A program made the translations under genes and the position numbers. Positions 23,488-55,601 of a DNA stretch of 64,000 nt are shown piece by piece. Positions within the stretch are counted from its first letter, which is position 1, and each line of letters starts with the position of its first letter. Origin of the DNA: Branchiostoma floridae (Eukaryota; Chordata; Leptocardii; Amphioxiformes; Branchiostomatidae); assembly GCF_000003815.2 (NCBI RefSeq), contig NC_049988.1:21062534-21126533 (forward strand), in the 5' to 3' direction. A model generated the notes under the pieces. The model worked only from the letters and a program-made list of their open reading frames with translations, was not told the origin of the DNA and did no database searches.

Positions 23488-23600
23488 ATTGGTTAGTTTA
23501 ACTATACTGCTCATCGTCGGAGAGCCGCTGCATAGTGGTGGTGAGAGTTCCGCCTGTCGCCTACGGACGTCCTGCAAAACATTAACAGAAATGACAGGGA
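23488..23600 (-). repeat. lectin-unit 3' flank module, copy 1
   Basis: cggagagccgctgcatagtg, gtgagagttccgcctgtcgc and ctacggacgt recur at 27275-27385 and 34995-35100. It lies just downstream of CTLD-1, so it marks the 3' edge of the duplicated unit. Confidence 0.85.
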
Positions 23601-23702: not shown

Positions 23703-24124
23703 TCAGGAAATGGGACGGTTAGAGCCAGTACCTGGGGCAGCCTGGCATATGAAGTAAAACACACTGTCGCATGGGTAGTCGTGCAACTCGGTTGCTGATC
23801 CGGTGTAAAGAACGCAATCTTCGTTGCCCACATAGCTGTTCGGTTGTCCCGGAGCCCAGGAGTTGTAGGTCCCAAGTGCAGAACCATCCACCCACTCAAA
23901 GCTTCCCTCTTCGCGCTGATCGTGCAGGCCGATCCAGTAGGGCAGCCTGTCGCGCACGGACTTGTACAAGGAGTTCAGGAAGGCGTCGGTCTCAGCGTCT
24001 CGGGGCATGGCGAGGGTGCCGCCGTCTTCACGACAGGCCGCGGCCGCATCGCTGAAGGTCTTCTCTGTGTTGAAGGCCTTGTAGCAGATTCCACGGAACA
24101 CTGCGTAACCTTCAGGACAAGATG
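23703..24124 (-). CDS. CTLD-1 exon 4: C-type lectin domain
   Basis: Acceptor ttccag on the minus strand, phase 1 in, TGA stop at 23705-23703. One exon holds the whole domain of about 130 residues with the usual six Cys positions (CPEGY, CYKAF, ACRED, EDCVL, YPCDS, FICQA). Confidence 0.9.
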
Positions 24125-25428
24125 CTGGAAACAAATTAGGTCAACAACATACATATGAATAAAGCTACAAGTTAATGGAGAGATGTGATGAAATGTATGT
24201 AATTGTTAATGACTTGTAATTATTAGAATAATGATAGTCCCCTAAGTTTAGACCGTCACATGGCAACTCAAACCCAACTTACGCAGCGCCTTACGCATCT
24301 CGTGAAGACTCTGCTCTAAGGCGGCGGTTCGGCTTTGCTCCTTGTCCAGGTCTCGCTTCAAGGCGTCAACAGTGGTGAATAGTTGGCGCATGTCGTCTTG
24401 GTCGCGCTTTAAGGCGTCAACAGTGGTGGCCATGTCGCCTATGTCACGATTCAAGGTGTCAACAGTGGCAGACATGTCGTCTTGGTCGCGCTTCAAGGTG
24501 TCAACAGTGGCAGATATGTCGTCTTGGTCGCGCTTCAAGGTGTCAACAGTGGCAGATATGTCGTCTTGGTCGCGCTTCAAGGCGTCAACAGTGGTGGATA
24601 TGTCGTCTAGCTCACGCTTCAAGGCGTCAACAGTGGTGGACATGTCGTCTTGGTCGCGCTTCAAGGCATCAACAGTGGTGGACAGCTGGCACATGCCATC
24701 ATGGTCGCGTTTCAGGGCGTCAACAGTGGCGGAGAGTTGAGTTATTTCCTAAAGACGAAAGTCAGATTATCACAAATAAGTAGAAAAGTAGAGGGGAAAC
24801 AGCAGTATGTTCCGTGGTAGGTAGTCAATTAAAACGAAGAGCAGAACAACGGAAAGATGTTTGAAAATAGTTTTGTGTACAAACGTGTTTACCTCCTTAT
24901 TCATGACAGTCAGAGGGGCGAATGCCAGAGCAACTAGACCTAGAAGCACGGCAATGCCAGCGGCCATGTAGCTACGGTGGGAGCGGATGAAGCTACAGCG
25001 AGCACGGCAGCCGCTTGCTTCACCGGCATACGTGCGGTCTATTAGAAAAACATATTTGTCTCAGTCACACAGTGGTAAGATAAGTAATGAGAAGAAAGTG
25101 ATTATTCCCTATCTCTAACTGATATTGTGTCTTCTTTTTGTCAAAATGGCAAGATAATTGTATCACTGAAAAAAAAGGCAAGTTACATAAACCGACGGCT
25201 ACCTGCAGACGTGTACGTGGCATAACGTTTCACCGCCTCGGCTTCTTCGTATGTGTCTGTAGACGTTTCTTGGTCTCCTTGCCACTTGTCAAAAGCGCCG
25301 TTGCCATGGCGGCCACGTCCGCGGGAACCACCCTGATGGACAGGAGGGGGTTGGGACGGCGGCCCGCTGGTTTGGCCGCTGTCAGGGCGCGGGAAAGGGG
25401 ACCGGACTGGCTCTGCTTGCTGGTACAT
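23703..25428 (-). CDS. CTLD-1: type II membrane C-type lectin with coiled-coil stalk
   Basis: Complete four-exon model: 25428-25203, 25038-24893, 24748-24283, 24124-23703; 1260 nt, 419 residues, phases 1/0/1 all consistent. An in-frame stop just upstream of the ATG supports this start. Order: a Pro/Gln-rich cytoplasmic tail (starts MYQQAEPVRSPFPRPDSGQT, includes TYEEAEAV); one membrane helix (MAAGIAVLLGLVALAF) with no signal peptide; about nine copies of a 14-17 residue repeat (STTVDALKRDQDDM) forming a predicted coiled coil; and a C-type lectin domain with CYKAF, WIGLHDQ, FEWVDGS, WAPGQPN, NEDC and FICQA. The calcium/sugar motif is QPN, and LHD replaces the usual WND, so sugar binding is uncertain. 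It is a likely surface recognition receptor; the ligand is unknown. Confidence 0.88.
24283..24748 (-). CDS. CTLD-1 exon 3: coiled-coil repeat stalk
   Basis: Acceptor ctttag, donor gtaagt, 466 nt, phase 0 to 1. Nine repeats of the STTVDALKRDQDDM type with occasional RQL inserts, then a terminal ALEQSLHEMRKAL segment. The opposite strand gives long open frames rich in SWSRFKASTVV, which are artefacts of the repeat. Confidence 0.9.
24893..25038 (-). CDS. CTLD-1 exon 2: transmembrane segment
   Basis: Acceptor taatag, donor gtaaac, 146 nt, phase 1 to 0. RTYAGEASGCRARC and basic residues precede a helix of about 22 residues (AAGIAVLLGLVALAFAPL), matching a type II (N-in) orientation. Confidence 0.87.
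25203..25428 (-). CDS. CTLD-1 exon 1: cytoplasmic tail
   Basis: Starts MYQQAEPV and ends at a gtagcc donor in phase 1 after YATYTSA. Rich in Pro, Gly, Arg and Gln (PPSQPPPVHQGG). Tyr residues in TYEEAE and RYATYTSA could be phosphorylated, but they do not fit a strict ITIM or ITAM. Confidence 0.85.
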
Positions 25429-25526
25429 GACCGCACTGTACAGTCAAGAAGCAAACAATACAGCAGCCAACGTCAAGGTGCATGAATATGGACAACAATG
25501 CCATGATTAGTCTGGAGAATTGAGGA

Positions 25527-25660
25527 TGTCTTTGCCCATATTTGGAGGGATGACGCGGTATGACGTGCTGAAGATGACATTTTGTTTTTCTGCAAGAGGC
25601 AGACTAATTTTCTGGGAAAAGAAGCTAACCTTTGGGGCTGGGAGGTCGAGGTGGAAACAT
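25527..25660 (-). promoter_or_regulatory. conserved 5' flank box, copy 1 (upstream of CTLD-1)
   Basis: Starts about 100 bases upstream of the CTLD-1 ATG. Shared elements: tttggagggatgacg, attttgtttttctgcaag and gactaattttctgggaa. Copies at 32935, 33502, 35205 and 43517. Promoter role is inferred from position and conservation only. Confidence 0.6.
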
Positions 25661-26035
25661 GGAAAATATGATACATTGACAATGTAACATGCAACGGCTG
25701 AAGGCCTTTTGAAGGTTTTAAAACAATATTGAATGTTTCAGCAATGTTTTGTTTCTTTATCTTTTGATACTTTCAAAATGCTGTCGGTTGTGCGGATTAC
25801 GAAACGGTGCAATATAAGCATGGGCGCCAGGGGGAGCCGTATGCTGGTCTAGAAAATTGTTAAATCTTTTGACGCAAAACAACATCTTCTAACGCAAAAC
25901 AACCACCCTCCCAATGGAAGTACAAGAATGAAGAATTTGTTCTTGTAAAGCAGGACTAAGCTGCGTTAGTGAAGAAAAGCCCGCCATGATTGGAGCACAG
26001 TTTTGGATACAGCATGCCCTATACTATGATAACAT

Positions 26036-26285
26036 AAGTCACATTCAGCATCAGGTAACATAAGTCACATTCAGCATCAGGTAACATAAGTCACATTCAG
26101 CATCAGGTAACATAAGTCACATTCAACATCAGGTAACATAAGTCACATTCAGCATCAGGTAACATAAGTCACATTCAACATCAGGTAACATAAGACACAT
26201 TCAGCATCAGGTAACATAAGTCACATTCAGCATCAGGTAACATAAGTCACATTCAGCATCAGGTAGCATCAGTCACATTCAGCTT
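26036..26285. repeat. 26-bp tandem repeat, about 9 copies
   Basis: Unit aacataagtcacattcagca plus tcaggt, nearly perfect. Confidence 0.93.
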
Positions 26286-26394
26286 AACAGCAAACACTTT
26301 ATAAGCACCATACCTTTATGCCTCATGTGATTAATATTGTCAGTGTCCAAATTTGGACAACACGTATATATATGGAGCGGACTGACGCTAGCTG

Positions 26395-26860
26395 ACATCT
26401 GTCTCACCACAGTCACCCCTCAGTAAGACAGCCGGAGCCGCAGAGTTCCCGTTTACAACATTTATTCAGTCTGTCTATTCAGGCCTTCAGACCGGTTTAA
26501 TCAATGTGGCTTCTTCAGTGGTCCAGGCTCAAATGAGCACAGTATACAAACTTTGGAGTACAGCAAGAAAATCTCTATGACTTATTTCAAGCTTCTTGTA
26601 AAGGAAATTCCATCGACTGATCCTCACGCTAACCGACACGTTTCCCACCACAGTCACCCTCAGTAAGACAGCCGGAGCCACAGAGTTCCCGTTTACAATT
26701 TTTATTCAGTCTGTCACACAAAGCGGTTTCGCCTTTGTGGCTTCTTCAGTGGTCCAGGCTCAAATGAGCACAGTATACAAACTTTGGAGAACAGCAAGAA
26801 AATCTCTATAACTTGGTTTAGGCTTGTTACAACGGAAATTCCTTCAATAAATACCAGCAA
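26395..26860. repeat. intergenic module duplicated in tandem
   Basis: Two copies of caccacagtcacccctcagt ... cttcttcagtggtccaggct caaatgagcac (about 245 bases apart). Further copies at 34366-34560 and 43998-44250 belong to the receptor repeat unit or to a transposon carried with it. Confidence 0.8.
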
Positions 26861-27059
26861 TTCTGGTATTGTGTTTTTTGTCCGTTTACAACAACAAAAG
26901 GAAGGAAGTCTATTGCGAAAACAGTGAGGTTACGCTTCATTACAATGAGTGAAGTTGTCCTTACATTTTGTTAGTCCTGTCTATCAGCATTTTGTAGGAA
27001 ACGCTCCAGAAACAGGCAATAGATTTGATACAGCCAAACCAGGAGCTTTCCAGCTTCTA

Positions 27060-27385
27060 GCAAGTTTTCTATGTTTAAAAATGGCTATGTGCATATCTTA
27101 CGAAACGTACATTTTCTCTGTATGAAAACTCAGCGTGTCTACCACTGTAAAGTACGTGATCCATTGCTTTGGTGCCCATTCACTATTTCTTCCATTAGCT
27201 TTCTACTCAGCAAACTCTTAAACGTATTCATAAAACAACGCGCCTGTTGCTATAATTCCAGGTTTCACGTTTTACTGGTCAGTCTTACTGCGGATGGTCG
27301 GAGAGCCGCTGTACAGTGGTGGTGAGAGTTCCGCCTGTCGCCTACGGACGTGCTGAAAAATATTAACAGAAATGGCAGGGATATG
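27060..27385 (-). repeat. lectin-unit 3' flank module, copy 2
   Basis: Collinear with 34775-35100 and, for the final part, with 23488-23600. Lies downstream of CTLD-2. Confidence 0.85.
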
Positions 27386-27673
27386 ACGTGAAGTGTTTAT
27401 AACAATAGCAATACTAATTAGCAATACTAACTAGACTACCTCCATGAATCAATTTATGCATGGGATGTTCACCTTCAACAAACTTACACATGTCACAACT
27501 ATAAGATTCTCATAATTTATCATTAAAAGATTTTGCAATTTTTGTTTAAAATATGCAAATCAGTCCCTCATTTGCATGTGTGATATCTGTATATTTCATG
27601 GCTGTTATGATAGTCTAATGCACTCCGTGTAATGGATACTTAAGCTGTGGCATGTTCACTAGACAGAAAGGTT

Positions 27674-28101
27674 TCAGGAAACGGTACGTTTATAAATACC
27701 TGGAACAGCCTGGCAGATGAAGAGACGTGGCATGTGGCATCGGTAGTCGTACCACTTGTCTTTATAGATGTCGGAGTAAAGAACGCAATCCTCGTTGCCC
27801 CTATAGCTGTCCGGTTGTCCCGGTCCCCAGGAGTTGTAGGTCCCAAGTGCAGAACCATCCACCCACTCAAAGCTTCCCTCTTTGCGCTGATCGTGCAGGC
27901 CGATCCAAAAAACACCCCTGTCGCTGTCGCTCACGGGCTTGTACAAGGAGATCAGGAAGGCGTCGGTCTCAGCGTCTCGGGGCATGGCGAGGGTGCCGCC
28001 GTCTTCACCACAGGCCGCGGCCGCAGCGCTCCAGGTCTTCTCTGTGTTGAAGGCCTTGTAACAGATTCCGCGGAACTCTGCGTAACCTTCAGGACAAGAT
28101 G
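27674..28101 (-). CDS. CTLD-2 terminal exon: C-type lectin domain
   Basis: Acceptor ttccag, phase 1 in, TGA at 27676-27674. Very similar to the CTLD-1 domain through NSWGPGQP, then diverges over the sugar-site loop (DSYRGNEDC, YKDKWYDYRC). Confidence 0.9.
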
Positions 28102-31100
28102 CTGGAAAACAGCGAGTCAAGCCATTACATTTACTGCATCAGAAGGCCATATCTCTCATTAGTTTTATTCAATACCAGTATAATTAGTAAATGATATGAG
28201 TTAGTGAAACACTACGTAAAACATAACAACATGCATATATGCACATATACATGTACGGACATGATTGATGATGAGGATGATGAATACCACATGTGTACGT
28301 GCTCCATTCATGCTAGAAATCCTGCAGGCATATGAATGATTGATAAGGTAAATATTTTATAGTATAATGGTCACAAAATTTCCTGCTATTACACTAGCTA
28401 CGTTGCTATTACAAATAGTCCATTTGACAACTAAATAACCAACCTACCTGGCGACTTTTTCATCTCGTGAAGACGCTGCTCCAAGGCGGTGGTTCGGCCT
28501 CGCTCCTTGTCCAGGTCGCGCTTTAAGGCGTCAAGAGTAGTGGACATGTCGTCTTGGTCGCGCTTCAAGGCGTCAAAAGTGGCGGACAGTTGGCGTATGT
28601 CGTCTTGGTCGCGCTTCAAAGCGTCAACAGTGGTGGATATGTCGTCTTGGTCACGCTTCAAGGCGTCAAAAGTGGCGGACAGTTGCCGTATGTGGTCTTC
28701 GTCGCGCTTCAAGGCGTCAAAAGCGGCGGACAGTTGGCGTATGTGGTCTTGGTCGCGCTTCAAGGCGTTAATAGTGGTGGACAGTTGGCGCATGTTGTCT
28801 AGGTCGCGCTTCAAGGCGTCAACAGTGGTGGACAGTTGGCGCATGTCGTCTTGGTCGCGCTTCAAGGCGTCAACAGTGGTAGACATGTGGTCTTGGTTGC
28901 GCTTCAAGGCGTCAACAGTGGCGGACAGTTGGCGTATGTCGTCTTGGTCGCGCTTCAAGGCGTCAACAGTGGTGGACAGTTGGCGTATGTCGTATTGGTC
29001 GCGCTTCAAGGCGTCAACAGTGGTGGACAGTTGGCGCATGGCGTCTTGGTCGCGCTTCAAGGCGTCAACAGTGGCGGACAGTTGGCGCATGTCCTCTTGG
29101 TCGCGCTTCAAGTCGTCAAAAGTGGCGGACAGTTGGCGCATGTCGTCTTGGTCGCGCTTCAAGGCGTAAACAGTGGTAGACATGTGGTCTTGGTTGCGCT
29201 TCAAGGCGTCAACAGTGATTGGCAGCTGGCGTATGTCGTCTTGGTCACATTTCAAGGCGTTAACAGTGGTGGACAGTTTGCGCATGTCGTCTTGGTCGCG
29301 CTTCAAGGCGTCAACAGTGGCGGACAATTGGCGCATGTCGTCTTGGTCACATTTCAAAGCTTGAACAGAGGTGGACATGTTGTCTTGGTCGCACTTCAAG
29401 GCGTCAACAGTGGTGGACATGTTGTATTGGTCGCGCTTCAAGGCGTCAACAGCGGTGGACAGTTGGCGCATGCCGTCTTGGTCACATTTCAAAGCCTGAA
29501 CAGATGTGGACATGTTGTCTTGGTCGCGCTTCAAGGTGTCAACAGTGGTGGACAGTTGGCGCATGTTGTCTTGGTCACGCTTCAAGGCGTCAACAGTGGT
29601 GGACAGTTGGCGCATGTCGTCTTGGTCGCGCTTTAAGGCGTCAACAGTGGTGGACAGCTGGCGCATGTTGTCTTGGTCGCGCTCCAAGGTGTCAACAGTG
29701 GGGGACAGTTGGCCCATGTCGTCAAGAGTGGTGGGCATGTCGTCCTGGTCGCGCTTCAAGGCGTCAACAGTGCTGGTAAGTTCAGATGTTTCCTACGAAC
29801 GCATAAACGTATATACGTACGCCAGACCAAAGGTTGAAACAACAATATGAAACATCAGAAAGTTATGGCTTGATGGACTCAATAAACAGAACAGAGGCAA
29901 TTACTTTGCAGCAGGCCTTTATGATTCAAGAGCGCTTACCTCATTGTTGATGAACGCCAGGAGGGCGAGTCCCACAGCGACCAGGCTTAGCAGCACGGCA
30001 ATGAACGTGGCGATGTAAATAAGCTTCGAGCGGATGAGGCTACACAGAGCGCGGCGGCCACTTGCTCCACCCGGATATGTGCGGTCTGTTAGAAAACAAA
30101 ATGATTTTTCAAAACTTTGAACTTGAATTTCCAACGCGAAAATTGAACGCGAGAGTTTTGACTATCCAACTCCCGTCTTTGTCAAGGATATGCAAAAACT
30201 GGAAAAGACTTGAGATGGCATGGACAGCCGAAAATTTGGGGAAGTCAAATTTTCGTGCTGGAAATTACATACATAGCTTAATTTTCATCCAGATTAGACA
30301 AGTTGGTACTAACGCACAATTAATTACATGGTAGTAGAAAATAAAAAGCACGATCGGTAATTCACCAAGCAATCTATTTCATACTACTAAAGTTCTGTAC
30401 TATGATTACTACCAACACAGATGAGCTTTCATAATAAGCAATCTATTTATTCATTTGTATTTCTTTAACATACAAAAAGCTGACCGATTTTGTCTATATT
30501 ATAATTGCCTCTTTAAAACAACTAAACAACATTGATTGGCTTATTTCGATGACCTTTAGCTCAGATTGAGCTAATCTTTCAGGGCTCATACAATAAAACG
30601 GGTCATTAAACATTGTTCTTCAAACGAAGCAGTGTACCAAAATATAAGTTTTCATTATTGCATGATCTGCTCTTTCAACTTTGCCCCGTTTGTTTCAATT
30701 CTATAATTGCTAAAGAAATCATATTTGTATTAAAGTCGAGTTTGTATCATAGCGACGCAGTCACATCCGTCGAAGGTTGTCATAAGATTTTAATGTTGAA
30801 GAGTTATCAACAGTCTATGACAGAATCAACCGGAGGCAAGCTTCTACGGCAGTCCTTTCCCAACAAGACAGTTGATTTCTTTTTACAAAACCTGCTTGTA
30901 ATCTGCTTGTGATCTTACGGCAATCGTACGACGAATATGAGACAAAATTACAGAGTTTTACCTGCTCTGGAGACGTACAAAGCGTTGGGAATGCTCGCAG
31001 CGACGTCCGCAATGGACTGCCAATAAGTCTGCGGCTGCTGCACGGGTGTGGTGCCTGGGGGAAAATTATAAAATTAAACACGCTCCAGATATAGGACAAA

Positions 31101-32190
31101 ATGTACGTATAAAAGCGAGACAGGAACAGGACGCCGTAAGCAAAAAAAACGATTTACCTGCTCCGGAGGCGTACATAGGGTTGGGCACACTCGCAGCGGC
31201 GTCGGCACGTGCCAGAAAATCAGTCTGCTGCCGCTGCATGGGTGTGGTGTCTGGAGAAAAATTACAAAATTAAAATGGCGCCGGCGGTATGAATTAAGGA
31301 GACAGTCACTTCAAGAGTTTAATGAAGCAATATACAACATGATTTGAACAAATGTATATCCAGTAACTATGGTAGTATCATTTGATTTAGAACACCAGTG
31401 GAACTGTGGCAAATGGACACCCTTCTCCAGTTATTGTACATCGCACCATCAGAGAGTCATTTTTCAGACTCAAGTTGTTTTTGTCGCATGGAAATACAAA
31501 TATGACTTGTGATGACATCACAGTAAACGTAGCGACAAGGTTTGAAATTAGAATCTGGGTTCGAAAAATGTTATATTCAAGACAGAAAAAAACATTGCTT
31601 GATCATCGTGGTTAAATTGTGCGATATCATAATATTACATATATTTTATGGCCTTCATCTTGTACGTTTCATTTTGAGCAGCGATGCTGGGTTCCAAACT
31701 GGTTATATTTTCAGCCAAACGCACCTACACTTCTCGATAAGTGAGTCGGGTTCTTTCACGTGCGGAGGTTTGACGACTAAGGACGAACTTAACGCCCGAT
31801 GCTTCCTATGTACGGGGCTTTACTTCACCATCGGAAATGGTGAATTTACCCCATTTTACGCCATTCCGCAAGCGGGTTCGCACTTGATCCATATGGTGAG
31901 GCAGTCCCCCTATATACCTGCCCCTACTACTTGTGCCCCCCCCCCCCCGCGGGATAGAGAAAATACTGCCATAAAAATGCATCCTCCAGGCTTCATGCCT
32001 CGGCCAAAAGCTAATTAGAAGAATGAACATATAGAAATGCACGGCACTGGGTAATTTTAAATCTTAGAGTTGTCGTTACATAGTTTTTTAAAACCAAATC
32101 CCCTTGGCCACTGACATATGAGAGAGAAAATATTCTAAACATTTATTTACCCGTGTCACCAGTTTGGGACTGCTGTTGCCCTCCCGGCAT
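27674..32190 (-). CDS. CTLD-2: long-stalk type II C-type lectin with alternative cytoplasmic exons
   Basis: Six-exon model: 32190-32151, 31250-31158, 31054-30962, 30085-29940, 29792-28448, 28101-27674; 2145 nt, 714 residues, every junction in phase. The tail differs from CTLD-1: MPGGQQQSQTGD, then two homologous 31-residue modules on tandem 93-bp exons. The TM exon has the same length as in CTLD-1 (146 nt) and similar sequence. The stalk exon (1345 nt) has about 27 repeats of the VDALKRDQDDM type. The lectin domain has CYKAF, WIGLHDQ, WGPGQPD, NEDC, WYDYRC and FICQA; the QPD motif is the galactose-type signature in animal lectins. Distinct first exons on a shared body suggest promoter and exon capture after duplication. 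Start choice at 32190 rests on phase and the donor and is less certain than the rest. Confidence 0.85.
28448..29792 (-). CDS. CTLD-2 coiled-coil exon
   Basis: 1345 nt, acceptor gttcgtag, donor gtaggt, phase 0 to 1. About 27 repeats: 14-residue units (two heptads) mixed with 17-residue units carrying RQL. It ends with ALEQRLHEMKKSP as in the sister genes. Confidence 0.9.
29940..30085 (-). CDS. CTLD-2 transmembrane exon
   Basis: 146 nt, acceptor ctaacag, donor gtaagc. RTYPGGASGRRALC, then the helix FIAVLLSLVAVGLALLAF. Confidence 0.88.
30962..31054 (-). CDS. CTLD-2 cytoplasmic exon, 93-bp copy B
   Basis: Acceptor cccccag, donor gtaaaa, phase 1 to 1. Encodes TTPVQQPQTYWQSIADVAAS followed by a PNALY motif. 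Homologous to the 31158-31250 exon and equal in length. Confidence 0.8.
31158..31250 (-). CDS. CTLD-2 cytoplasmic exon, 93-bp copy A
   Basis: Acceptor tctccag, donor gtaaat, phase 1 to 1. Encodes TTPMQRQQTDFLARADAAAS followed by PNPMY. A symmetric-phase exon, so duplication or skipping keeps the frame. Confidence 0.8.
32151..32190 (-). CDS. CTLD-2 first coding exon
   Basis: ATG at 32190 (context gcaccatgc), 13 codons (MPGGQQQSQTGDT) plus one base, donor gtaaat. The phase matches the following 93-bp exon. Short, so supported mainly by phase and splice signal. Confidence 0.65.
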
Positions 32191-32934
32191 GGTGCGACTT
32201 GTCAGGTTTCTGCACAGCAAAAATACACGCCCTGCGTCAGGCGGGGTCCGAGACGCAATGTGAAATATGAAGAAATTAGAGTCCAAAGATGAAAGAAAAT
32301 CACGAGTGACAAACAACGCACGTTTCCAGACAAATCAGATGCACACGTAATCGTTTTCTTTGTTGCATATTGAAAGAGAGGTATCGAAAACAATTTTGAA
32401 AGACTTTCTACCTTATTCATCATGTTTGAAAATCCATCACATACATTGAATTCATCTATATTCGCCCATAAGAGAAAAACAGTTGTGTTTATTTTCTTCC
32501 TCTGAAATTTTCGGTCTTCGTCACACACGTAGACAGTAATCACACATAAGACTTTTACGTTAACGCATACCTTTACAGATTTTCTACAATAAATTTTCAT
32601 TATCTTGGCGTCTTCACCCAAGCAACACCCAAGTGACAAACCCATGCTTAGCGCTGCAGTATTGCTAAGAGTTGTCAGGTGGCGTTATTTACAGGTCAGA
32701 ACGTCAGGGTCGACAAGGAGAATATGTATATATTGTTAAACTGATCGTGGAAATCTCGTAGAAATGAATTTGATTCATGCATCCCTGTAAATTATCTGAC
32801 AGATTTTGATATAAACATGTAGAAATAAGTATATTTTATCATAATAATTTTATGTTGTGTCGTGCAGTACATAAATGTGTAAGACACATGAATATACCAA
32901 GTAATACCTTAATTAGTCTGACGACGTAAGATCA

Positions 32935-33060
32935 CATCTAACCTTATTTGGAGGGATGACGTGGCATCATGTGGTGCGAATGGCATTTTGTTTTTCTGCA
33001 AGTGGGAGACTAATTTTCGAAGTTAATCTGGCCTGAAATGGAGAGATGAAAAAGTTGTTT
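32935..33060 (-). promoter_or_regulatory. conserved 5' flank box, copy 2
   Basis: ggagggatgacgtggcatca, then attttgtttttctgcaagtg; the ttctgggaa block is lost. About 750 bases upstream of the CTLD-2 ATG, further than in the other genes. Confidence 0.5.
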
Positions 33061-33501
33061 TTTACATGAAAACTCTTCAGTGTAAATGTAGTCATTAAAT
33101 CTCCGTGTTTTTCTGGAGACATTGCAAACCCTTTCTGAAATTCTGGGTTAAACGCGTAAAGTGTACTATAATATAGCACTGTGTGCTGCAATAACTTACA
33201 TTCATTTCAAGTGTAACTGTATATCAAACAGAGGAATTCAGAGTTTGTTTTAGAACGTTTAACTTCAGTAATATGATCGAGTACATTTTAGACTACAGTG
33301 ATTGACATGTGTCATGAACGTCAATGAACAGCGCAGCTATACGCTATGTTGTTCTTTCAGTTCAGCATAACCAGAATATCTTTTTTTGTCCAAAAACCGC
33401 GAAATTGAATTGATGAGACCTAAAGATACCAGAGTTCCACAATGATAATACACAACATACCCAGTAAACACAAACAACAACAACAGGCCATAATTATATT
33501 C

Positions 33502-33630
33502 ATTTGGAGGGGTGACGTGGCATTAGGTGGTGCGAGTGGCATTTTGTTTTTCTGCAAGTGGCAGACTAATTTTTTGGGAAACGAAGTTAATCTGGGCTGG
33601 GAGTGAGAAACGTCAAAAACTTTGTAAGGG
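33502..33630 (-). promoter_or_regulatory. conserved 5' flank box, copy 3
   Basis: ggaggggtgacgtggcatta, attttgtttttctgcaagtg and ctaattttttgggaa. Second box upstream of CTLD-2. Confidence 0.5.
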
Positions 33631-35100: not shown

Positions 35101-35204
35101 TATGGGATGATGTGTTTTGACATGGATTAGAACCAGGGAAATGATGATCCACCGTTCTTAATGTACTGGGTTTTAGTCTGGTTTCATTAGTCTGACGACG
35201 TGAG

Positions 35205-35345
35205 GCCATGTTTGCCCTTTCTGGAGGGATGACGTGGCATCAGGTGATGCGAATGGCATTTTGTTTTTCTGTAAGTGGCAGACTAATTTTCTGGGAAAAG
35301 GAGTTAATCTGGGCTGGGAGGGAGAAACATAAAAAAAAGTTGTAC
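35205..35345 (-). promoter_or_regulatory. conserved 5' flank box, copy 4, orphan
   Basis: ggagggatgacgtggcatca, attttgtttttctgtaagtg and gactaattttctgggaa. No first exon follows it on the minus strand; a 3' flank module abuts it. Confidence 0.55.
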
Positions 35346-35349
35346 GTGA

Positions 35350-36630
35350 GAACTCTAAATGTAGTCATAATATCTACATGCTACAGTTTGGGAATATATG
35401 TGGACATAATCAGATTTTCCATGACAGGTTAGGCCTTTTTCTCAGCTGTTGATTCATTTGTCAAAATAACAGACCACACCGATAGATACCTGACTACATA
35501 GACTGGTTTAATAAAGGCATAAGCTGTGTTGTTTGAACTTCATTTTTACTCCAATCAAATGTTGTAACATAAGTAAACAACCATTAGATGTACGGTCAGT
35601 CAACCCTCTAAATGTATATGTCATCTTCACACATTACTATAGGTTTTCTTACTGTTTTCTTACAACCTTTTCTTGCATCCTTTCTTACAACATTTGATAA
35701 GTTTTCTTTCATCTTTCTCACAGCCTTTTTACAGCTGACGTAGAACATTTCTTACAGCCTTCTTACACTCTTTCTTACAGCCTTCTTGCAGTCTTTCTTA
35801 AACCTTTCTTACCACTTTCTTACATTCCTTCCTTACAGTCTTTCTTAGAACTTTTGACCCCCATTTTCCTACAGCCTTTCTCTGTACTATGTTAAATTTT
35901 CACCAAGGTCTTCTGTATCGATCAGCACATTATAGAAAAACTGCATTACAACATCTTGCAAAAGTCAATAGGTGCTTCGGTGGTGCTTACAACAAAAAGA
36001 CACACTATATATAATCACGCTTATTAATCTATAGAGTTGTAATTTAACTCTCGGTAAAAAAAACTACTATGTATGTTATTTGCTCTTGTATAAAGCATCT
36101 TGTGTACTATTTTCACGTTCCAATATATTCACATTGTTCTTATTCCATGTTCAAAGGTCCTTATAAGACATCGAACACACCAGTTCTTGATGTACAGTCT
36201 TTAGAGCACTTAGCTCGTCTCGGCCAACCTTCCAGTCTTATTCTCCAGACGTCTCTTAATATCTTCGTTTCTTTCTAACCCTCTGGGCCCTACCATTCCT
36301 CTGCCTACAAGGGGGATTACCATGGTTAATCTGTTTATCTGTTTAGTGAAGTAAGAGCACAAATATATTTTTCAAATATTCCTTTAGGGTCACTTTTTCT
36401 CTGTCTACAATGTATCGTGTAAGTATTAACAACCAAAACATTAAAAAGAATGAAATCCAAAGTGCGGCAAACGTTTTTTTTCGATCACGTGCAGCATACA
36501 TTCAAGATTGAAGGGTTCTTATGTGTCATTTCATGTGGTCAAGAACTCATGAATTTTAATAAATGGATCATGGCATTAAGCGTTCTTGTTGTTTAGATTG
36601 ATAGATCCAGAAAGGCAACAGAAAGTATGT
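35350..36630. other. intergenic region, no gene seen
   Basis: 35640-35880 is a T/C-rich run of ttcttacagcctttcttaca-like units. No coding signal. It probably includes the 3' UTR and downstream DNA of FReD-1. Confidence 0.55.
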
Positions 36631-36633
36631 TGT

Positions 36634-36946
36634 TTATGGCCTGATCTTCATAGAAACGGACTTCAGGGAGTAATACCCGCCTCTCCAGTGGAGCCACACC
36701 ACACCTTGTGAGGATGGACAGGAGTACCCACAGTTGCCCAGGTAGCGGCCGTTGAGGAGGGAGTAGCTGCAGGTCCAAAACCATTAGCCGGCCTGTCCCC
36801 ACCGCTGAGAACAATGGCCGCTCCAGTCATCATTGTCCCTGTCCACAGTGGAGAACCTGTGCCCGTTGTTGTAAGTCATGGAGTCTCCCGCGGTGCCTGA
36901 ATACCCGGAAATGTGCAGCCGGTACCCGTCCGACTCACCGGACACC
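36634..36946 (-). CDS. FReD-1 terminal fibrinogen exon with premature TAA
   Basis: Acceptor caaccag, phase 2 in, normal stop at 36636-36634. Encodes VSGESDGYRLHISGYSGTAG through WSGHCSQRWGQAG, then TAA, then continues in frame with WFWTCSYSLLNGRYLGNCG and VVWLHWRGGYY. The open frame after the stop implies a recent lesion. Confidence 0.85.
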
Positions 36947-37329
36947 CTGGTTGGGAATATCACACAAGTGGGCTAATACACCTTTCTCACGCGGCGGCCA
37001 TGATAGATCGAAGACGAGGTCAATGAGGCAAACAGACAAAACTTATTTTTAAAATCAGCAGCCATTTAGATTTCCCTCAGACCACACAAATTTTCACAAT
37101 ATAAGATCAAATAATAAATATTATAACTAGTGTTATGCATCGAAAGATGTAGCAATTAAGAGTAGCGTAGACTGACCCCATAGTCCCTTAAGACATGCAA
37201 AATAAAAACATAATAATGTAGATATTTGACGGACATGCAGCCATTCTCTTATTGGTCGCTTTCATAATTGATAGGCTATCATTGGTTGAGCTGCTAATTA
37301 TGAGGGGCAATTTGATTCGACGAATAATA

Positions 37330-37503
37330 CAGTAGAAGCCAGTTAATTGCACAGCGGATTAACACACACTCCTGTTAACTGCACGGAATCCTAACATCCC
37401 AAACCGGTGCGATCCAGCTAGATAACTTCGCATTATTGCACCAGTCGGATAATTGCACAAAATTCACTGACAAATAGGCCGTGCAATTAAGCGGCTTCTA
37501 CTG
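37330..37503. mobile_element. pogo/Tigger-like MITE with TA target duplication
   Basis: cagtagaagcc and ggcttctactg termini with cagttaattgcac / gtgcaattaagcg inner repeats, flanked by TA on both sides. Lies within the FReD-1 intron. The superfamily is inferred from the CAGT ends and TA duplication. Confidence 0.78.
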
Positions 37504-37555
37504 TAATAAGTTAACATAATTTGTGACCACATATTCATACTCACGAAGTACAAAC

Positions 37556-37765
37556 AAGATTTACCCGCAGGTAACCACCTAAAGGTGTTTTACTCAACTA
37601 AAGATGTTTTATTCACCCGAAGGTGTTCTACTCACCTGAAGGTGTTTGACCCTGAAGGTGTTTCATTCACCTGAAGGTGTTTTGCTCACCTAAAGGTGTT
37701 TGACTCACCTGAAGGTGTTTTACTCACCTGAAGGTGTTTTACTCACCTGAAGGTGTTTTACTCAC
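37556..37765 (-). repeat. donor-edge array of the FReD-1 central exon, about 10 copies
   Basis: 19-20-base units; on the minus strand each reads caccttcag/gtgagtaaa, repeating the exon end and donor of 37766-37982. Confidence 0.92.
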
Positions 37766-37982
37766 CTGAAGGTGCTGTACTCTGCGTAGCGTGATTCGTT
37801 GTTCCAGTCCACGAGGTCAATCCTCATGCGATAGTTTTTCTGATTGGTCAGGAGGTGGATGTTCTCGTTCCCCAGCCAGTACTCCCCGTTCTTGTTCCCA
37901 AAGCCCAGTTTGTACTCCTCCCAGGTCCGGTTGAAGGGAACCGACCCGTCCTGCCGCCGTTGGATCACAGTCCACCCGCCTC
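37766..37982 (-). CDS. FReD-1 central fibrinogen exon
   Basis: Acceptor ccccacag, donor gtgagt, phase 1 to 2. Encodes GGGWTVIQRRQDGSVPFNRT, EEYKLGFGNKNGEYWLGNEN and RMRIDLVDWNNESRYAEYST, the hallmark FReD core. Confidence 0.9.
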
Positions 37983-38094
37983 CTGTGGGGAGAAAGTAAG
38001 GTTAGCAAATAGGACAGAAATGTAAGCACTCACGCACACATGTAGAATAAAAGGTTAACAAATAGGAAAAAACTGTAAGCAATTTGTTAGTGAA

Positions 38095-38290
38095 AGGGAA
38101 AACATACTCGTACACACACACATACATACAAACAAACATACACACACGCACACCTGCGCATACAATAATTCATACACACATACGCCGGCACATGCACATG
38201 CACACGAACATGCACACAAACACAAACACATACATACAAACACACACACAAACACACAGACACACACACGCACACACGCACACACACATG
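38095..38290. repeat. (CA)n-rich microsatellite
   Basis: Imperfect acacacacatacaaac tracts in the FReD-1 intron. Cys/Val-rich minus-strand frames here are artefacts. Confidence 0.92.
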
Positions 38291-38339
38291 TAGAATAAAA
38301 GGTAAAGGCATAACTTGCCATGTTTAGCAGAAACCCTAC

Positions 38340-38447
38340 CTGCGGTATCCATGTCACAGAACGCCTCCACATCAGCGGGGAGGATGCCGATTGAGTAGAC
38401 TCCGCTTGTTGTCGATCCGGATGAATGGTACTCGGCACAGTCTTCCT
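38340..38447 (-). CDS. FReD-1 first fibrinogen exon
   Basis: Acceptor ttttctag, donor gtaggg, phase 1 to 1. Encodes EDCAEYHSSGSTTSGVYSIG and VEAFCDMDTAG. The phase-1 start is the same as that of the lectin exons in the sister genes. Confidence 0.88.
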
Positions 38448-38576
38448 CTAGAAAACGATTAAAAGGAAAAAGTAAATATTTGTGTTGAATTTCAATATCA
38501 AAAACACCGTCCTCACAGACAGACCTCACTGGCCCGTAGCGTTTTCAACCACAACCGGCCTTCAAGTGGATCGAGT

Positions 38577-38734
38577 TAGCCTCCATAGCAGGCTTTCTGG
38601 GGCCTTTTTTTGGGGCCCCCGAAAGGCCGGCAACCAGAAAAGGCCAGCAATCAGCGACCGAGTACAAATAGAAATGGGCAGCAAAAGTGTATTATGAGCC
38701 AAAAAAGGCACCAGAAAGCCTGCTATGGAGGCTA
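38577..38734. mobile_element. MITE with perfect 9-bp target duplication
   Basis: tagcctccatagcaggcttt and its inverse form 24-base terminal repeats. GGATCGAGT flanks both ends (38568-38576 and 38735-38743). A 9-bp duplication suggests Mutator-like transposition. A one-ended relative begins at 56349. Confidence 0.88.
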
Positions 38735-38774
38735 GGATCGAGTGTTGCCAGCCGAATTTGAGTACCTCCAACTC

Positions 38775-39657
38775 CTTGTTTGTTTGTTTGTTTAATTTAT
38801 TTTGAACGACACTTATGTATCAGGCCTCTTAGTGACTGATATATCTCACCACTTTCCAATCTTTTATAATAAAAAAACACTTGCAAGAGTCAATATAAAA
38901 AAATAAAATAAAATAAAATAAAGTAAAATATAATAAAATAAAATAAAATAAAATAAAATAAAATAAAATAAAATAAAATAAATAAATAAATAAATAAATA
39001 AATAAAAGAAAATTAGTCTTATTTATCCCTATCTCTCGTTCTGTAACATTGTATGGGCGAGTACTTAAACCACTCTTTTTACTTCAGAAACGGTTCATCA
39101 GAATAGCCTCAAATGCTCCCTTCACTTTCCCAAAAGCCCCGCTTTTTACAAATTAAAGTTAGAAATCTGAACAGTATACGACATGAATAGAATTCAAACT
39201 ATTTTTTACGTCTAATATCATTCAGAAATGTTCCTACCTTTCTGAAATTTACTGTAATACCTTTTTATCAAACTCAGATATCCACAGCCATCACACAAGA
39301 AATAGCAGCTATCTAAGGCCTATTAATGCAAAAACTATCCAACGGCAATTCTGCTTCATGTTCTACAGTTTGGAACAACTTGGCTAGTACATTAAAGTTA
39401 GGTCCCTCTTTCGCTACTTTCAAGTGTCACACTAAAGCTGAATTTTATTATTTTTTGCAATGTGTTTTCATTCCATCGACTACGTTATTTGTTCCATCGA
39501 CTACGTTATTTGTTATCCATTCTTATTTCTTTTGTTTAATTTCTATCAATTGTAATTCCCATAAGCAGGCGCTTTTGGCCTCCCTTGCACTGTTTATGTT
39601 TTATAATTCATTGTCATGTATTTTGTTTTAAGTGCGAAACAAATTAAACAAACGAAT
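38775..39657 (+). mobile_element. non-LTR retrotransposon remnant (LINE 3' end)
   Basis: 39326-39460 encodes STVWNNLASTLKLGPSFATF, which resembles the WNxLPxxLKxAPSxxxFK block at the end of many LINE reverse transcriptases; a preceding HSHHTRNSSYLRP frame matches the HSYNTR block one frame away. It ends in an A-rich aattaaacaaac tail at about 39657. Frameshifted and inactive. Confidence 0.75.
38899..39006. repeat. (AAAAT)n / (AAAT)n microsatellite
   Basis: Uninterrupted aaataaaataaaat runs inside the LINE-flanked segment. Confidence 0.93.
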
Positions 39658-40012
39658 ATTGGTGATCACTGACAAACCATTACAGTTACTGCATCAAAAG
39701 GCCATATCTCCCATTAGTTTTACTCAATACCAGCATAATCAGTAAATGGTATGAGTTAGTGAACAACTATGTAACATAACAGGTATATATGCACATGTAC
39801 ATGTAGGGACATTATTGATGATGTGAATAAGATGATACTGAATACCACACGTGTACGTGCTTCATTCATACTAGAAATCATGCAGGCATGTGAATTATTG
39901 ATAAGGGAAATTGTAGCATTAATGAAGTAATGATAGTGAAAAACTTTCCTGCTATTATACCACTGACGTTAACATCACAAATAGTCCATTTGACAGCTAA
40001 AAACCGACCTAC

Positions 40013-41357
40013 CTGGTGACTTACTCATCTCGTGAAGACGCTGCTCCAAGGCGCCCATTCGGCTACGCTCCTTGTCCAGGTCGCGCTTTAAGGAATCAAC
40101 AGTGGTGGACATGTCGTCTTGGTCACGCTTCAAGGCGTCAACAGTGGTGGACATGTCATCTTGGTAGCGCTTCAAGGCGTCAACAGCAGTGGACATGTGG
40201 TCTTGGTCGCGCTTCAAGGCGTCAACAGTGGTGGACATGTCGTCTTGGTCACGCTTCAAGGCGTCAACAGTGGTGGATATGTCGTCTTGGTCTCGCTTCA
40301 AGGCGTCAACAGTGGTGTACATGTCGTCTTGGTCGCGCTTCAAGGCGTCAACAGTGGTGGACATGTCATCTTGGTCGTGCTTCAAGGCATCAACAGTGGT
40401 GGACACGTTGTCTTGGTTTCGCTTCAAGGCGTCAACAGTGGCGGACAGTTGGCGCATGTCGTCTTGGTCGTGCTTCAAGGCTTCAACAGTGGTGGAAACG
40501 TTGTCTTGGTCGCGCTTCAAGGCATCAACAGCGCTGGACATGTCGTCTTGGTAGCGCTTCAAGGCGTCAACAGTGGTGGACACGTTGTCTTGGTTGCGCT
40601 TCAAGGCGTCAACAGTGGCGGACAGTTGGCGCATGTCGTCTTGGTCACGCTTCAATGCGTCAACAGTGGTCGACAGTTGGCGTATGTCGTCTTGGTCGCG
40701 CTTCAAGGCTTCAACAGTGGTGGCCAGTTGGCGCATGTCGTCTTGGTCGCGCTTCAAGGCGTCAACAGTGGTGGACAGTTGGCGTATGTCGTCTTGGTCA
40801 CGTTTCAAGACGTCAACAGTGGTCGACAGTTGGCGAATGTCGTCTTGGTCGCGCTTCAAGGCGTCAACAGTGGTCGACAGTTGGCGTATGTCGTCTTGGT
40901 CGCGTTTCAAGGCTTCAACAGTGGCGGACATGCCGTCTTGGTCGCGCTTTAAGGCGTCAACAATGATGGACGTGTCGTCTTGTTCACGCTTCAAGGCATC
41001 AACAGTGATGGACGTGTCGTCTTGGTCACGCTTCAAGGCGTCAACAGTGGCGGACAGTTGGCGCATGTCGTCTTGGTCGCGCCTCAAGGCGTCAACAGTG
41101 GCGGACAGTTGGCGCATGTCGTCTTGTTCACGCTTCAAGGCATCAACAGTGGTGGACATGTCGTCTTGGTCGCGCTTCAAGGCGTCAACAGTGGTAGACA
41201 GTTGAGTTATGTCGTCTTGGTCGCGCTTCAAGGCCTCAACAATGATGGACAATTGGCGAATGTCGTCTAGGCTGAGTTTTAAGGCATCAATAATAGTGGA
41301 CATGTCGTCTTGGTCGCCCTTCAAGACATCAACTGTGCTGGACAGCTGTGCTATTTC
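40013..41357 (-). CDS. FReD-1 coiled-coil exon
   Basis: 1345 nt, acceptor gtctttag, donor gtaggt, phase 0 to 1; about 28 repeats of the VDALKRDQDDM type. Same length to the base as the CTLD-2 stalk exon although the order of 14- and 17-residue units differs. Confidence 0.88.
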
Positions 41358-41486
41358 CTAAAGACGACCGTCAAAGTAGAAATAGTTTAGGAAAAACTGC
41401 AGCATTGGTCTGTCTTGACATTCCATTGGACAAACGACAGAAGCAATGTAAAGAAATGCTTGAAAAGAAGTCTGTTAAATGTTTAC

Positions 41487-41617
41487 CTCTTTATTGATGA
41501 ACGTCAGAGAGGCCAGTCCCACAGCAGACATGCTGAACAGCACGGCGATGCCGACGGCCAAACAGCTGCAGCTACAGCGAGCACGGCGACCGCTTGCTCC
41601 ACCCGGATACGTGCGGT
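41487..41617 (-). CDS. FReD-1 transmembrane exon
   Basis: Acceptor ctccacag, donor gtaaac, 131 nt (15 nt shorter than in the CTLD genes, in frame). RTYPGGASGRRARCSC, then the helix AVGIAVLFSMSAVGLASL. Confidence 0.85.
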
Positions 41618-41688
41618 CTGTGGAGATGATAACGGAGGTTACCTCCACATACCGGATCAAGCTTAAGAAGTAAAATAACGAGGAGATG

Positions 41689-41788
41689 NNNNNNNNNNNN
41701 NNNNNNNNNNNNNNNNNNNNNNNNNNNNNNNNNNNNNNNNNNNNNNNNNNNNNNNNNNNNNNNNNNNNNNNNNNNNNNNNNNNNNNNN
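41689..41788. other. assembly gap (100 N)
   Basis: Unknown-size gap in the FReD-1 intron between cytoplasmic and TM exons. Confidence 0.95.
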
Positions 41789-43203
41789 TTTTCTATCAAT
41801 TTGATACAGCAAATACATAGGAGACACAGTTTAACATTGTTACGTTTAAATGCATTGTCAATACAAATATACATTGTAGGAGCACATGTACAAGCAGAAC
41901 TAAATAATCTGAACGAAGAAGTAAAAGATCACTGGAGACAGTGTCTGTGTCTGTATCAATACAGTCGGTATAACCGCCCTTCGGCGTATAATGTTAACTA
42001 TGTCTTCTTGCATGTGAACTAAGAAGAAGTTTGAAAGCTGTCACTTGCAAGCGTTGCACCCAAAATTAGTTTAGGATTTGCGGGGTTATGCTAGACTCGG
42101 TCGGTTGACAACATTTTTCCTAGGCTTAAATGACATCAAAATACCATAAAACGAAGATTGAGGTCGGTTATTGCAAGAACATTCTAACAAACTGTGATTC
42201 CGTTGCTGATGTTTTGGCGTGCGGTCTGCACTGGTAGGAGGGTGGAGTGGTGAAAACATTCATCTATGGTGGCGATTGTGTTTCTTTAACATCGTGGATA
42301 CTAATTACAGACTCGCGAGTTACGATCTCTCACATCGTCGTAATTTATCGCTTTTTGTGGTCAAATTGTGTTCCAACAATATTGTTTTGTCTTGTTGTAA
42401 ATTTCGTTTTGTTACATGACCTTCGATGGACACCAAGCGCCCCAGCTGTGTACCCCAACAGTAGTAGTAGTAGAAGTAATAGAAGTCATACAGTGTATTA
42501 CAGCACCGTTGGGGTTATACCGCTCCTTACGGGGTGGCATACGCTTTCGTCAAGCTGAATACAAGACGGGGATGCACCAGGTCTCCCGTCCGGGTGAATG
42601 ATGTAAATCACCGTGGCTTGTGGCTGATACGAGATGAAGGTTTGCCAGGCCTCCATAAGGGTAATTTGAAGTGAATCACCAACTCCCGACGGAAGGATTT
42701 GCACCATCACACACCGGGGCATGCCCCTACTCTTTTTTCAAAGGTGTGGTGGGTTCTTTAATGTGTGTAGGGTGTGGCTCTCCCCAAACACGTCCTATCC
42801 GAGGGACGGCCCTAGCCAAAGCTAGGTAATCATTTTTCACTTGAGTGAAGTTCCCCAAAGTGAGGTTCTTTTAATTATCAATATCACATCTATAGTACTA
42901 AAAGTAACATATACATGTACAGGTAAGGGTATCAGTCTATTTTGGGAGGACGGGGTAGCTAGGTTCCCAGCCATGATTCCTAGCCTCTGCCTAATGTAAA
43001 GTATGTCTATCCGTACGTGATAGGACATCATTTTTGCTTGAAAACTTTCAAATGATTGGACAACTGGCTTGACAACTAAATGCCCATGTTGCATTTGTAT
43101 CAGTAATTTGATCGTACACCATTTTTACTGAAAACCTCAGCTGATTTTACAACTATATCCCCATGTTGTACTGAAAAGGGCAAGTTACGAAAACATTTCC
43201 TAC
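41789..43203 (-). other. FReD-1 first intron
   Basis: No exon supported. A second copy of the cccctactctttt / gtggtgggttctt dispersed repeat lies at 42720-42835. Confidence 0.6.
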
Positions 43204-43408
43204 CTGCAGACGTGTACGTTGCGTGACGTTTCACTTCGACCTCTTCGTACGTGTATGAAGGCGCGACTTGCGACTTGCCAGCCCCGTTGAAAGGATGGAC
43301 ACGCCCGCGGGAACCACCCTGATGGACAGGAGGAGGGTGGGACAGCGGACCGCTGGTTTGGCCGCTGTCAGGGCGGGAGAAAAGGACCGGCTCTGCTTGC
43401 TCGTACAT
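43204..43408 (-). CDS. FReD-1 cytoplasmic exon
   Basis: ATG at 43408, donor gtagga, phase 1. Starts MYEQAEPVLFSRPDSGQTSG and ends HATYTSA; homologous to CTLD-1 exon 1 with small deletions. The frame is open upstream, but the matching stretch in CTLD-1 contains a stop, so this ATG is preferred. Confidence 0.8.
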
Positions 43409-43516
43409 GACCGTACTGTGTAGACGACAGGCGAACAGTGCAGCAGCAAACGTTAAGGTACATATATAGGCAGAAATGCCATGAATGGTATGAGAAAATA
43501 AGGATAAATCTTTGAT

Positions 43517-43635
43517 TCTATTTGGAGGGATAACGTGCCGCAAACGGCATTTTCTTTTTCTGCAAGAGCCAGAATGATATTCGAGGGAAAGAGGTTCATT
43601 TGGGCTGGGAGCTCGACGTAGAAATATAAAAAGGC
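43517..43635 (-). promoter_or_regulatory. conserved 5' flank box, copy 5 (upstream of FReD-1)
   Basis: ggagggataacgtgc, cattttctttttctgcaaga and gatattcgagggaaa. Starts about 110 bases upstream of the FReD-1 ATG, the same spacing as at CTLD-1. The most diverged copy. Confidence 0.55.
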
Positions 43636-44109
43636 CATTTTACAGGTAAGCGAGAAGTCTTAATGTAATTGTTTAATTAGATTGTGTTTTGCCGTTTCCA
43701 TAGCAGACAAGTCCAACTGCAAGTCTCTCCCACCCTTCATTGATTGCCGACAAATAGTAAGAATACAGCGGCGGGAATATTCACACCCTCTTTCTTAGTC
43801 TCGAATGTCATACTTTGAATAGACTTAAGTTTGTAACACCAGGGGAAAGCTGTTTGATGGGCTGGGTGTTTTGTTACGACCTACGATCCTTTGAAACCCA
43901 AACAGCTAAGCCCCGGATGGAAGAACACGACTTGAGGATTTGTTCTTAAAAGCAGGACTTATAAATTAGCTGTGCTCGGGAGCCTTGGTCACGAAAAGAG
44001 CGCCATAAGCAGTCACCCCTCAGAAAGACAGCCGGGGCCGATTTTTTTCGTATTTGGAACTTTTATTCAGTCTGTCACACAGACCAGTTTCGCCAATGTG
44101 GCTTTTTCA

Positions 44110-44222
44110 TAGCCTGGGTACCATCCGTATTTTACCGGGGCTCCTTACACTCGCTACCCCTAAAAAATTTTCGGGAAGTGAGTGTAATGAGCCCCGGTAA
44201 AAATAGGATGGTACCCAGGCTA
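44110..44222. mobile_element. short palindromic MITE with 9-bp target duplication
   Basis: tagcctgggtaccatcc and ggatggtacccaggcta termini; flanks gctttttca and gcttcttca differ at one base. Inserted into a copy of the receptor intergenic module, which confirms the insertion point. Confidence 0.82.
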
Positions 44223-44339
44223 GCTTCTTCAGTGGTCCATTCCGTCAATTCACTCTATATGAAAACTGGTGCTACATGACTACACTTGTACAGTACAGCT
44301 TGTTTAGATTTCATTCACTATTCTAATATCCTTCTTATT

Positions 44340-44479
44340 TCCTTGCGACTTGTCAGAAGCGCCGTTGTCATGGCGGACACGCCCGCGGGAACCACCCTGA
44401 TGGAGGGGGTCGGCCCGCTGGTTTGGCCGCTGTCAGGGCGCGGGAAAGGGGACCGGACCGGCTCTACTTGCTCGTACAT
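44340..44479 (-). pseudogene. relic of a fourth receptor first exon
   Basis: Starts MYEQVEPVRSPFPRPDSGQT like CTLD-1 exon 1, then a deletion of the PPSQPPPVH region shifts the frame and it ends in a stop after KEIRRILE. No donor equivalent and no downstream TM, stalk or lectin exon is found before FReD-1 begins. Best read as a decayed duplicate. Confidence 0.75.
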
Positions 44480-55520: not shown

Positions 55521-55601
55521 GGTGCTGGTGTGTGGGGTGTAACCTGAGCTGTGGTCAGCGGTAATGTGATACCTGCACACGGCTGGACTGGGACTGACCA
55601 C

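Follow-up and report, generated by a model that had tools for sequence, protein, structure and literature searches.

Introduction

The neck of the lectin receptors DC-SIGN and L-SIGN (CD209 and CLEC4M) consists of repeats of 23 residues, and FIBCD1 is a single vertebrate gene for which we know of no sharing of the stalk exon with lectin genes. In DC-SIGN and L-SIGN a cytoplasmic tail is followed by a transmembrane (TM) segment, a tandem-repeat neck encoded by one exon and varying in repeat number, and a C-terminal C-type lectin-like domain (CTLD) (PMC11945572). FIBCD1 is described as a type II receptor bearing a fibrinogen-related domain (FReD). Type II receptors of both kinds, CTLD-headed with a neck of repeats and FReD-headed, are known separately from one another. 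Here we describe three neighbouring genes (A, B and C) of the lancelet Branchiostoma floridae, in which a CTLD or a FReD is predicted to sit on the same kind of anchor and stalk (hereafter the scaffold). They lie in a stretch of 64,000 nt (G000:C10:21062534-21126533, referred to as the window), and the genome searched for relatives comprises 513 Mb in 431 contigs.

The CTLD-headed genes of this family have the same order of parts as DC-SIGN and L-SIGN. They differ in that the stalk repeats of A, B and C measure 14 and 17 residues instead of 23, and in that the amphioxus scaffold also bears heads other than CTLDs. With regard to FIBCD1, for which the order of parts alone was compared, tail, TM segment, coiled coil and C-terminal FReD follow one another in 15 of 16 loci outside the window (L009-L024). 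Gene C, in contrast, has a truncated head and hence lacks the complete C-terminal FReD of FIBCD1-like receptors.

Lancelet exon shuffling was described as very fast, biased towards phase 1-1 and associated with transposons (Huang et al. 2014; PMC4284660). Our genes have in common with this description the phase 1-1 exons as units of shuffling and a possible transposon association, but that paper mentions neither lectin nor fibrinogen domains, nor a scaffold with exchangeable ends. Genes with Lectin_C are over-represented among the dispensable genes of the lancelet pangenome (PMC12373286), an enrichment which the recombination model discussed below would predict. The pangenome study, however, deals with presence and absence of whole genes and not with head exchange on a scaffold. 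In the openly licensed literature we found no description of the scaffold and no paper containing its signature peptides; the 2008 survey of amphioxus immune genes lies outside this literature and may contain parts of it.

Results

Three tandem genes share anchor and stalk

Exon chains were read from the sequence, checked by tblastn and re-spliced by script. A, B and C follow one another on the minus strand. All three have a homologous TM exon (phase 1 to 0) and a homologous coiled-coil exon of tandem repeats (phase 0 to 1), as the original prediction had stated. Every internal exon of the three chains is preceded by AG and followed by GT, and the joins as drawn in Table 1 are predicted on this basis. 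Pfam assigns Lectin_C to the heads of A and B (cut-off 22.6 bits) and Fibrinogen_C to C (192.4 bits, cut-off 22), which bears out the proposed distribution of two CTLD heads and one three-exon fibrinogen head. All three heads are entered in phase 1, again as proposed, but the third FReD exon is entered in phase 2. Chain A comprises 413 aa up to its stop, chain B has an open frame of 706 codons that extends to the CTLD donor, and chain C begins with MYEQAEPV and would reach its ordinary stop after about 772 codons. A and B show an N-terminal inner tail, one TM helix, a stalk and a C-terminal CTLD in the manner of type II C-type lectin receptors. We infer that all three genes encode type II membrane proteins with a C-terminal head, their orientation being predicted.

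The two proposed tail types were recovered as well. A and C share the A type (65% match in tblastn), while the B type of gene B is made up of an MPGG exon and two 93-bp phase 1-1 exons, NPMY being present in the first of these only. A decayed additional A-type tail upstream of gene C, detected by tblastn, had no place in the original prediction.

The scaffold recurs across the genome under several heads

Scoring was confined to the best 150 places each of 278 stalk ends, 327 TM exons, 312 FReDs, 1305 CTLDs, 405 B tails and 275 A tails; 54 of 92 pentraxin and 33 of 34 H-type lectin rows entered the linkage count. Each anchor was assigned the nearest downstream head, provided that this lay on the same strand and no more than 8 kb away, whereby anchors without an assigned head often reflect the scoring of the best 150 head places. 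The search for stalks beside CTLDs or FReDs, which the original prediction had proposed as a check, returned both. Among the scored stalk ends 93 have a CTLD, 17 a FReD (including gene C) and two a pentraxin, and 38 remain without an assigned head. For the scored TM exons the corresponding counts are 81 CTLD, 14 FReD, one pentraxin, one H-type lectin and 53 without an assigned head, three of the latter preceding an unnamed domain on contig C9 by coordinate comparison. The stretch of contig C10 from 19 to 24 Mb holds many of the stalk-end and TM matches.

As a control for chance proximity the head clusters were shifted 1000 times. The 17 links of stalk and FReD (of 150) compare with 0.76 on average and at most 8 in the shifted sets, the 94 links of stalk and CTLD with a mean of 7.0, and the 15 links of A tail and H-type lectin with a mean of 0.36; none of the 1000 shifts gave as many in any of the three cases. 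Reading nine anchors that were initially without a head revealed a CTLD in six (L029, L030, L055, L058, L059 and L060), a pentraxin in L054 and an unnamed domain in L057, whereas the head region of L031 runs into an assembly gap.

Two kinds of FReD occur. A single-exon form is found in the 16 loci L009-L024, where the FReD matches have open frames of 216-251 aa and share 52-58% identity with exon 2 of gene C. Within the stretch examined, a stalk end and the FReD are present in all 16, a TM exon in 15 and a B-type tail exon in 14. The three-exon form of gene C is found on contig C148 with 88-97% identity to its exon 2 in the four loci read; in two of them (L025 and L026) a tail exon, TM exon and stalk precede the three FReD exons. 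FReD genes of one kind cluster in tandem. Contig C148, 452 kb in length, holds an array of the three-exon form and 20 of the best 150 FReD places.

Further heads were observed. In L054 (C5) a TM exon and a stalk end are followed by a collagen exon and by exons for a pentraxin (PF00354, Pentaxin, 73.7 bits). L052 (C3) combines an A-type tail and a related TM exon with a coiled coil of another kind; its head is an H-type lectin exon (PF09458, 59.7 bits), and 15 of the 33 entered H-type lectin matches have an A-type tail upstream. L058 (C5:27881450-27883450) and L060 (C17:16993400-16995600) carry a collagen exon between stalk and CTLD, an order which would resemble a membrane-bound collectin. In L057 (G000:C9:23447500-23450000, minus strand) TM exon and stalk are followed by two copies of a domain of ~100 residues, which has 60 matches genome-wide and no match in a Pfam or PDB sequence search. 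Taken together, one anchor-plus-stalk design seemingly carries at least five unrelated kinds of head and two kinds of tail. The data support a scaffold that recurs under CTLD and FReD heads and is not a misreading of gene C.

Tails, stalk repeats and motifs

Among the scored places, CTLD genes with a scaffold match comprise 46 with an A tail, 32 with a B tail, two with both in the chain and 43 without an assigned tail; the two double chains are probably two genes each. All four combinations of A or B tail with CTLD or FReD head are found, in unequal frequency. A tyrosine of the A tail lies in a YEEAE-like context in A, L052 and L053 and in YEEVE in C, and the NPMY of the B tail presumably fits the NPxY uptake signal.

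The stalks of A, B and C are composed of 14-residue units (STTVDALKRDQDDM) and 17-residue units with an added RQL. In our own heptad reading V, L, Q and M would occupy core positions and RQL would cause a shift of three residues. Stop-to-stop frames at the stalk matches range from 38 to 1017 codons.

Calcium and sugar binding by CTLDs is associated with the motifs EPN or QPD, plus WND. The CTLD of A has QPN and no WND, that of B QPD and WYD; WND itself is present in 12 of the 35 CTLDs compared and in neither A nor B. Since the sugar motifs vary, the ligands may differ.

Scaffold and head have discordant histories

Trees were built from the TM exons of 47 and 53 genes, leaving aside L005, which overlaps L002 and is the same gene, and L052. 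In the 47-gene tree L025 and L026 join the B-like CTLD genes (100/98), gene C is found elsewhere and the single-exon FReD genes are placed near other CTLD genes; five head changes and six tail changes are required. On the 53-gene tree a single origin of all FReD genes was rejected by the approximately unbiased (AU) test (p-AU 0.0077). One clade for the three-exon FReD rows is acceptable, and the pentraxin gene L054 lies inside a CTLD clade (100/98).

Identity also changes abruptly along pairs of paralogues. L001 and L050 are 82% identical in the TM exon and 98.7% in the CTLD, L036 and L050 conversely 98% and 85%. Between B and L003 identity is 98.8% for the intron, 87.2% for the CTLD and 77.6% for the 3' flank. 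The maximum chi-squared test was applied to 19 pairs, of which two L005 duplicates were set aside; in 16 of the 17 distinct pairs at most 8 of 1000 shuffles gave a value as high. The breaks fall into the CTLD exon in 11 pairs, the TM exon in four and the intron in two, whereby the stalk was excluded from the test and a break at the 3' end of the TM exon may lie in the stalk. Judged by these identities, near-identical scaffolds carry dissimilar CTLDs and vice versa, i.e. the histories of scaffold and head are discordant.

Gene C as a putative mosaic

The original prediction of a scaffold followed by FReD exons in gene C holds, but it overlooked an in-frame TAA inside FReD exon 3. The chain meets this stop at codon 723 of 773 (36786-36784), whereby the last 50 residues of the head are lost. 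Four copies of exon 3 in L026, L027 and L028 (contig C148) have TGG at the equivalent site. The TAA may represent a truncated head, a pseudogene or an error in base calling.

The intron behind the stalk of gene C is 89% identical to that of L025 and 81-82% identical to those of the CTLD genes L001, L003 and B. When C and L025 are compared with L001 and L003, homology ends in both after ATCACCA, ~45 nt before the CTLD exon, and past this break C and L025 continue in common sequence leading to the FReD exons. A break 16 nt before the CTLD exon was considered and rejected, as gene B has a local deletion there and L001 and L003 give ~45 nt. In its 5' flank and tail gene C is nearest to gene A (74%), in its FReD to the C148 genes. 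Hence gene C is probably a mosaic, in which a scaffold with A tail was joined to a 3' half with a FReD of the C148 kind.

Repeats are present in this region. The 1.6 kb intron of gene C contains repeat insertions, and part of its later stretch is repetitive in the genome. A palindrome-like repeat in the intron (38577-38735) has many genome copies in both orientations. The segment 39014-39652, directly past the CTLD-to-FReD junction, recurs on C7, C8, C9 and C13 and is possibly a mobile element at the break.

Table 1. Exons and related features of genes A, B and C, positions counted within the window
Feature	Position	Strand	Remarks
Gene A tail exon, MYQQAEPV..., A-type cytoplasmic	25203..25428	-	phase 0 to 1
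Gene A TM exon	24893..25038	-	phase 1 to 0
Gene A coiled-coil stalk exon, 155 aa	24283..24748	-	phase 0 to 1
Gene A CTLD exon	23732..24124	-	phase 1 to 1; Lectin_C 84.3 bits
Gene A last coding exon, GRP + stop	23561..23571	-	sequence reading, re-splicing
Gene B first tail exon, MPGG...	32151..32190	-	sequence reading, tblastn, re-splicing
Gene B 93-bp tail exon 1, with NPMY	31158..31250	-	phase 1 to 1
Gene B 93-bp tail exon 2, NALY replacing NPMY	30962..31054	-	phase 1 to 1
Gene B TM exon	29940..30085	-	sequence reading, tblastn, re-splicing
Gene B coiled-coil stalk exon, ~449 aa, 14- and 17-residue repeats	28448..29792	-	
Gene B CTLD exon	27700..28101	-	Lectin_C 78.7 bits
Gene B probable last coding exon, RP + stop	27342..27352	-	homology to gene A
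Gene C tail exon, MYEQAEPV..., A-type	43204..43408	-	sequence reading, tblastn, re-splicing
Gene C TM exon	41487..41617	-	sequence reading, tblastn, re-splicing
Gene C coiled-coil stalk exon, 448 aa	40013..41357	-	sequence reading, tblastn, re-splicing
Gene C intron stretch with homology to the intron between stalk and CTLD exon in CTLD genes	39660..40012	-	homology stops near 39660
Gene C FReD exon 1	38340..38447	-	Pfam, re-splicing
Gene C FReD exon 2	37766..37982	-	Pfam, re-splicing
Gene C FReD exon 3, in-frame TAA at 36786-36784	36634..36946	-	enters in phase 2
Decayed additional A-type tail copy, upstream of gene C	44331..44479	-	tblastn

Elsewhere in the window an open reading frame at 55236-55601 (minus strand) gives a borderline match to TMEM106_N (24.8 bits, cut-off 24.5). 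A search of the window with Rfam yielded no matches. Assembly gaps are present inside the window.

Discussion

We consider it likely that the genes belong to a germline family of lectin-like type II receptors, which owes its diversity to recombination within the stalk and next to it. The intron junction, the TM tree and the abrupt identity changes along paralogue pairs support exon replacement. Together with the 16 FReD loci outside the window they bring the original proposal of a receptor system evolving by exon replacement onto a broader footing, its function as receptors and in immunity being predicted from the sequence.

New members of this large germline family would arise by duplication followed by ectopic recombination or gene conversion between copies, joining a 5' half (tail, TM segment and stalk) to a new 3' half with the head. 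Crossovers in the stalk exon, in the following intron or where the head exon begins would preserve the frame, as all stalk repeats share one reading frame and the head is joined in phase 1. In-frame products should likewise result from unequal crossing-over within the stalk or the adjoining intron because the repeats are multiples of three and the heads are entered in phase 1. The proteins would then be exposed at the cell surface as coiled-coil oligomers, with the distance of the head set by the number of repeats. The heads may bind glycans or other ligands of microbial or self origin and the tails may drive uptake or signalling. Both the surface location and an immune role are presumed.

A number of observations weigh against this interpretation. 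The head of gene C contains an in-frame stop. Gene C, L025 and L026 as a single TM clade stay acceptable in the AU test (p 0.18), and because of this the case for gene C as a second recombinant is one of tail type, 5' flank and tree position. Tails are uneven among the FReD genes of the scored places, 14 having the B tail, one the A tail (gene C) and four no assigned tail. The three stalk-pentraxin links, counted without the blocking rule, were equalled in 6 of 1000 shifts and the one link of TM exon and H-type lectin in 11 of 1000. The pairs in the maximum chi-squared test are non-independent and were chosen from all pairs for high identity in one segment, and the pair L051-B has no significant break (66/1000). 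Moreover, in a Mantel test on 29 CTLD genes TM and CTLD identity are weakly correlated (r 0.22, a value reached in 4 of 2000 permutations), which indicates that exchange is not free.

Among the alternatives, ordinary lancelet exon shuffling in an expanded lectin family, with few ancient head swaps and a scaffold that favours no exchange now, has some chance of being right, although we regard it as unlikely. Exon shuffling in lancelets is reported to be the fastest among metazoans, with a phase 1-1 bias and an enrichment of transposon fragments at translocations (PMC4284660). The TM tree, with just five changes among five head classes, and the tandem clusters of one kind of FReD gene would fit as well. 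A few ancient events do not, however, explain CTLD heads that reassort among near-identical scaffolds.

The C148 loci L025 and L026, with tail, TM exon and stalk ahead of the same FReD exons, make it improbable that the FReD exons of gene C are a separate gene or a dead remnant and that the stalk gene ends headless. L025 even has the same intron junction, and reading the sequence between 40013 and 38447 of the window revealed no further 5' exons that could serve the FReD. The TAA and the 1.6 kb intron with its repeat insertions would nevertheless be in line with such a remnant.

Diversifying selection or local hypermutation instead of exchange could also be invoked for the differences between CTLD exons, as dN/dS, the ratio of nonsynonymous (dN) to synonymous (dS) divergence, is at least 1 in some pairs (L003-L051 1.22, B-L051 1.13). 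In the heads, however, dS is raised alongside dN (L001-L003: CTLD dS 0.21, TM dS 0.03), which speaks for exchange and not for selection alone. The non-coding 3' flank has diverged too, both in B-L003 and in L001-L003 (83.8%), though it is less diverged in L002-L036 (90.9%) and L051-B (98.2%). Given also the near-identical CTLDs of L001 and L050 on dissimilar TM exons, we regard this account as very improbable. Least credible is an assembly artefact, with the mosaics produced by mixed haplotypes or collapsed repeats: the region is rich in repeats and gaps occur in the window and in L031, but the same part order is seen in 16 FReD loci and breaks recur near the start of the CTLD exon in several pairs.

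Recombination in and beside the stalk, our preferred explanation, can be taken further. Stalk exon and next intron might form a standing recombination platform, by which heads of at least five folds have moved in the germline and individuals differ in the pairing of head and scaffold. We regard this extension as speculative and rather doubtful; if true, it would amount to a combinatorial receptor repertoire of non-somatic origin.

Type II lectins and fibrinogen-domain receptors are usually classed as separate families. Here CTLD, FReD, pentraxin, H-type lectin and an unnamed domain are seemingly placed on one anchor and stalk, and the two halves have discordant histories. The family would offer a natural set of constructs for the effects of stalk length and tail type at constant head. 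Moreover, it may provide a testable case of an invertebrate chordate that widens its germline-encoded recognition through recombining gene copies, with no somatic rearrangement involved.

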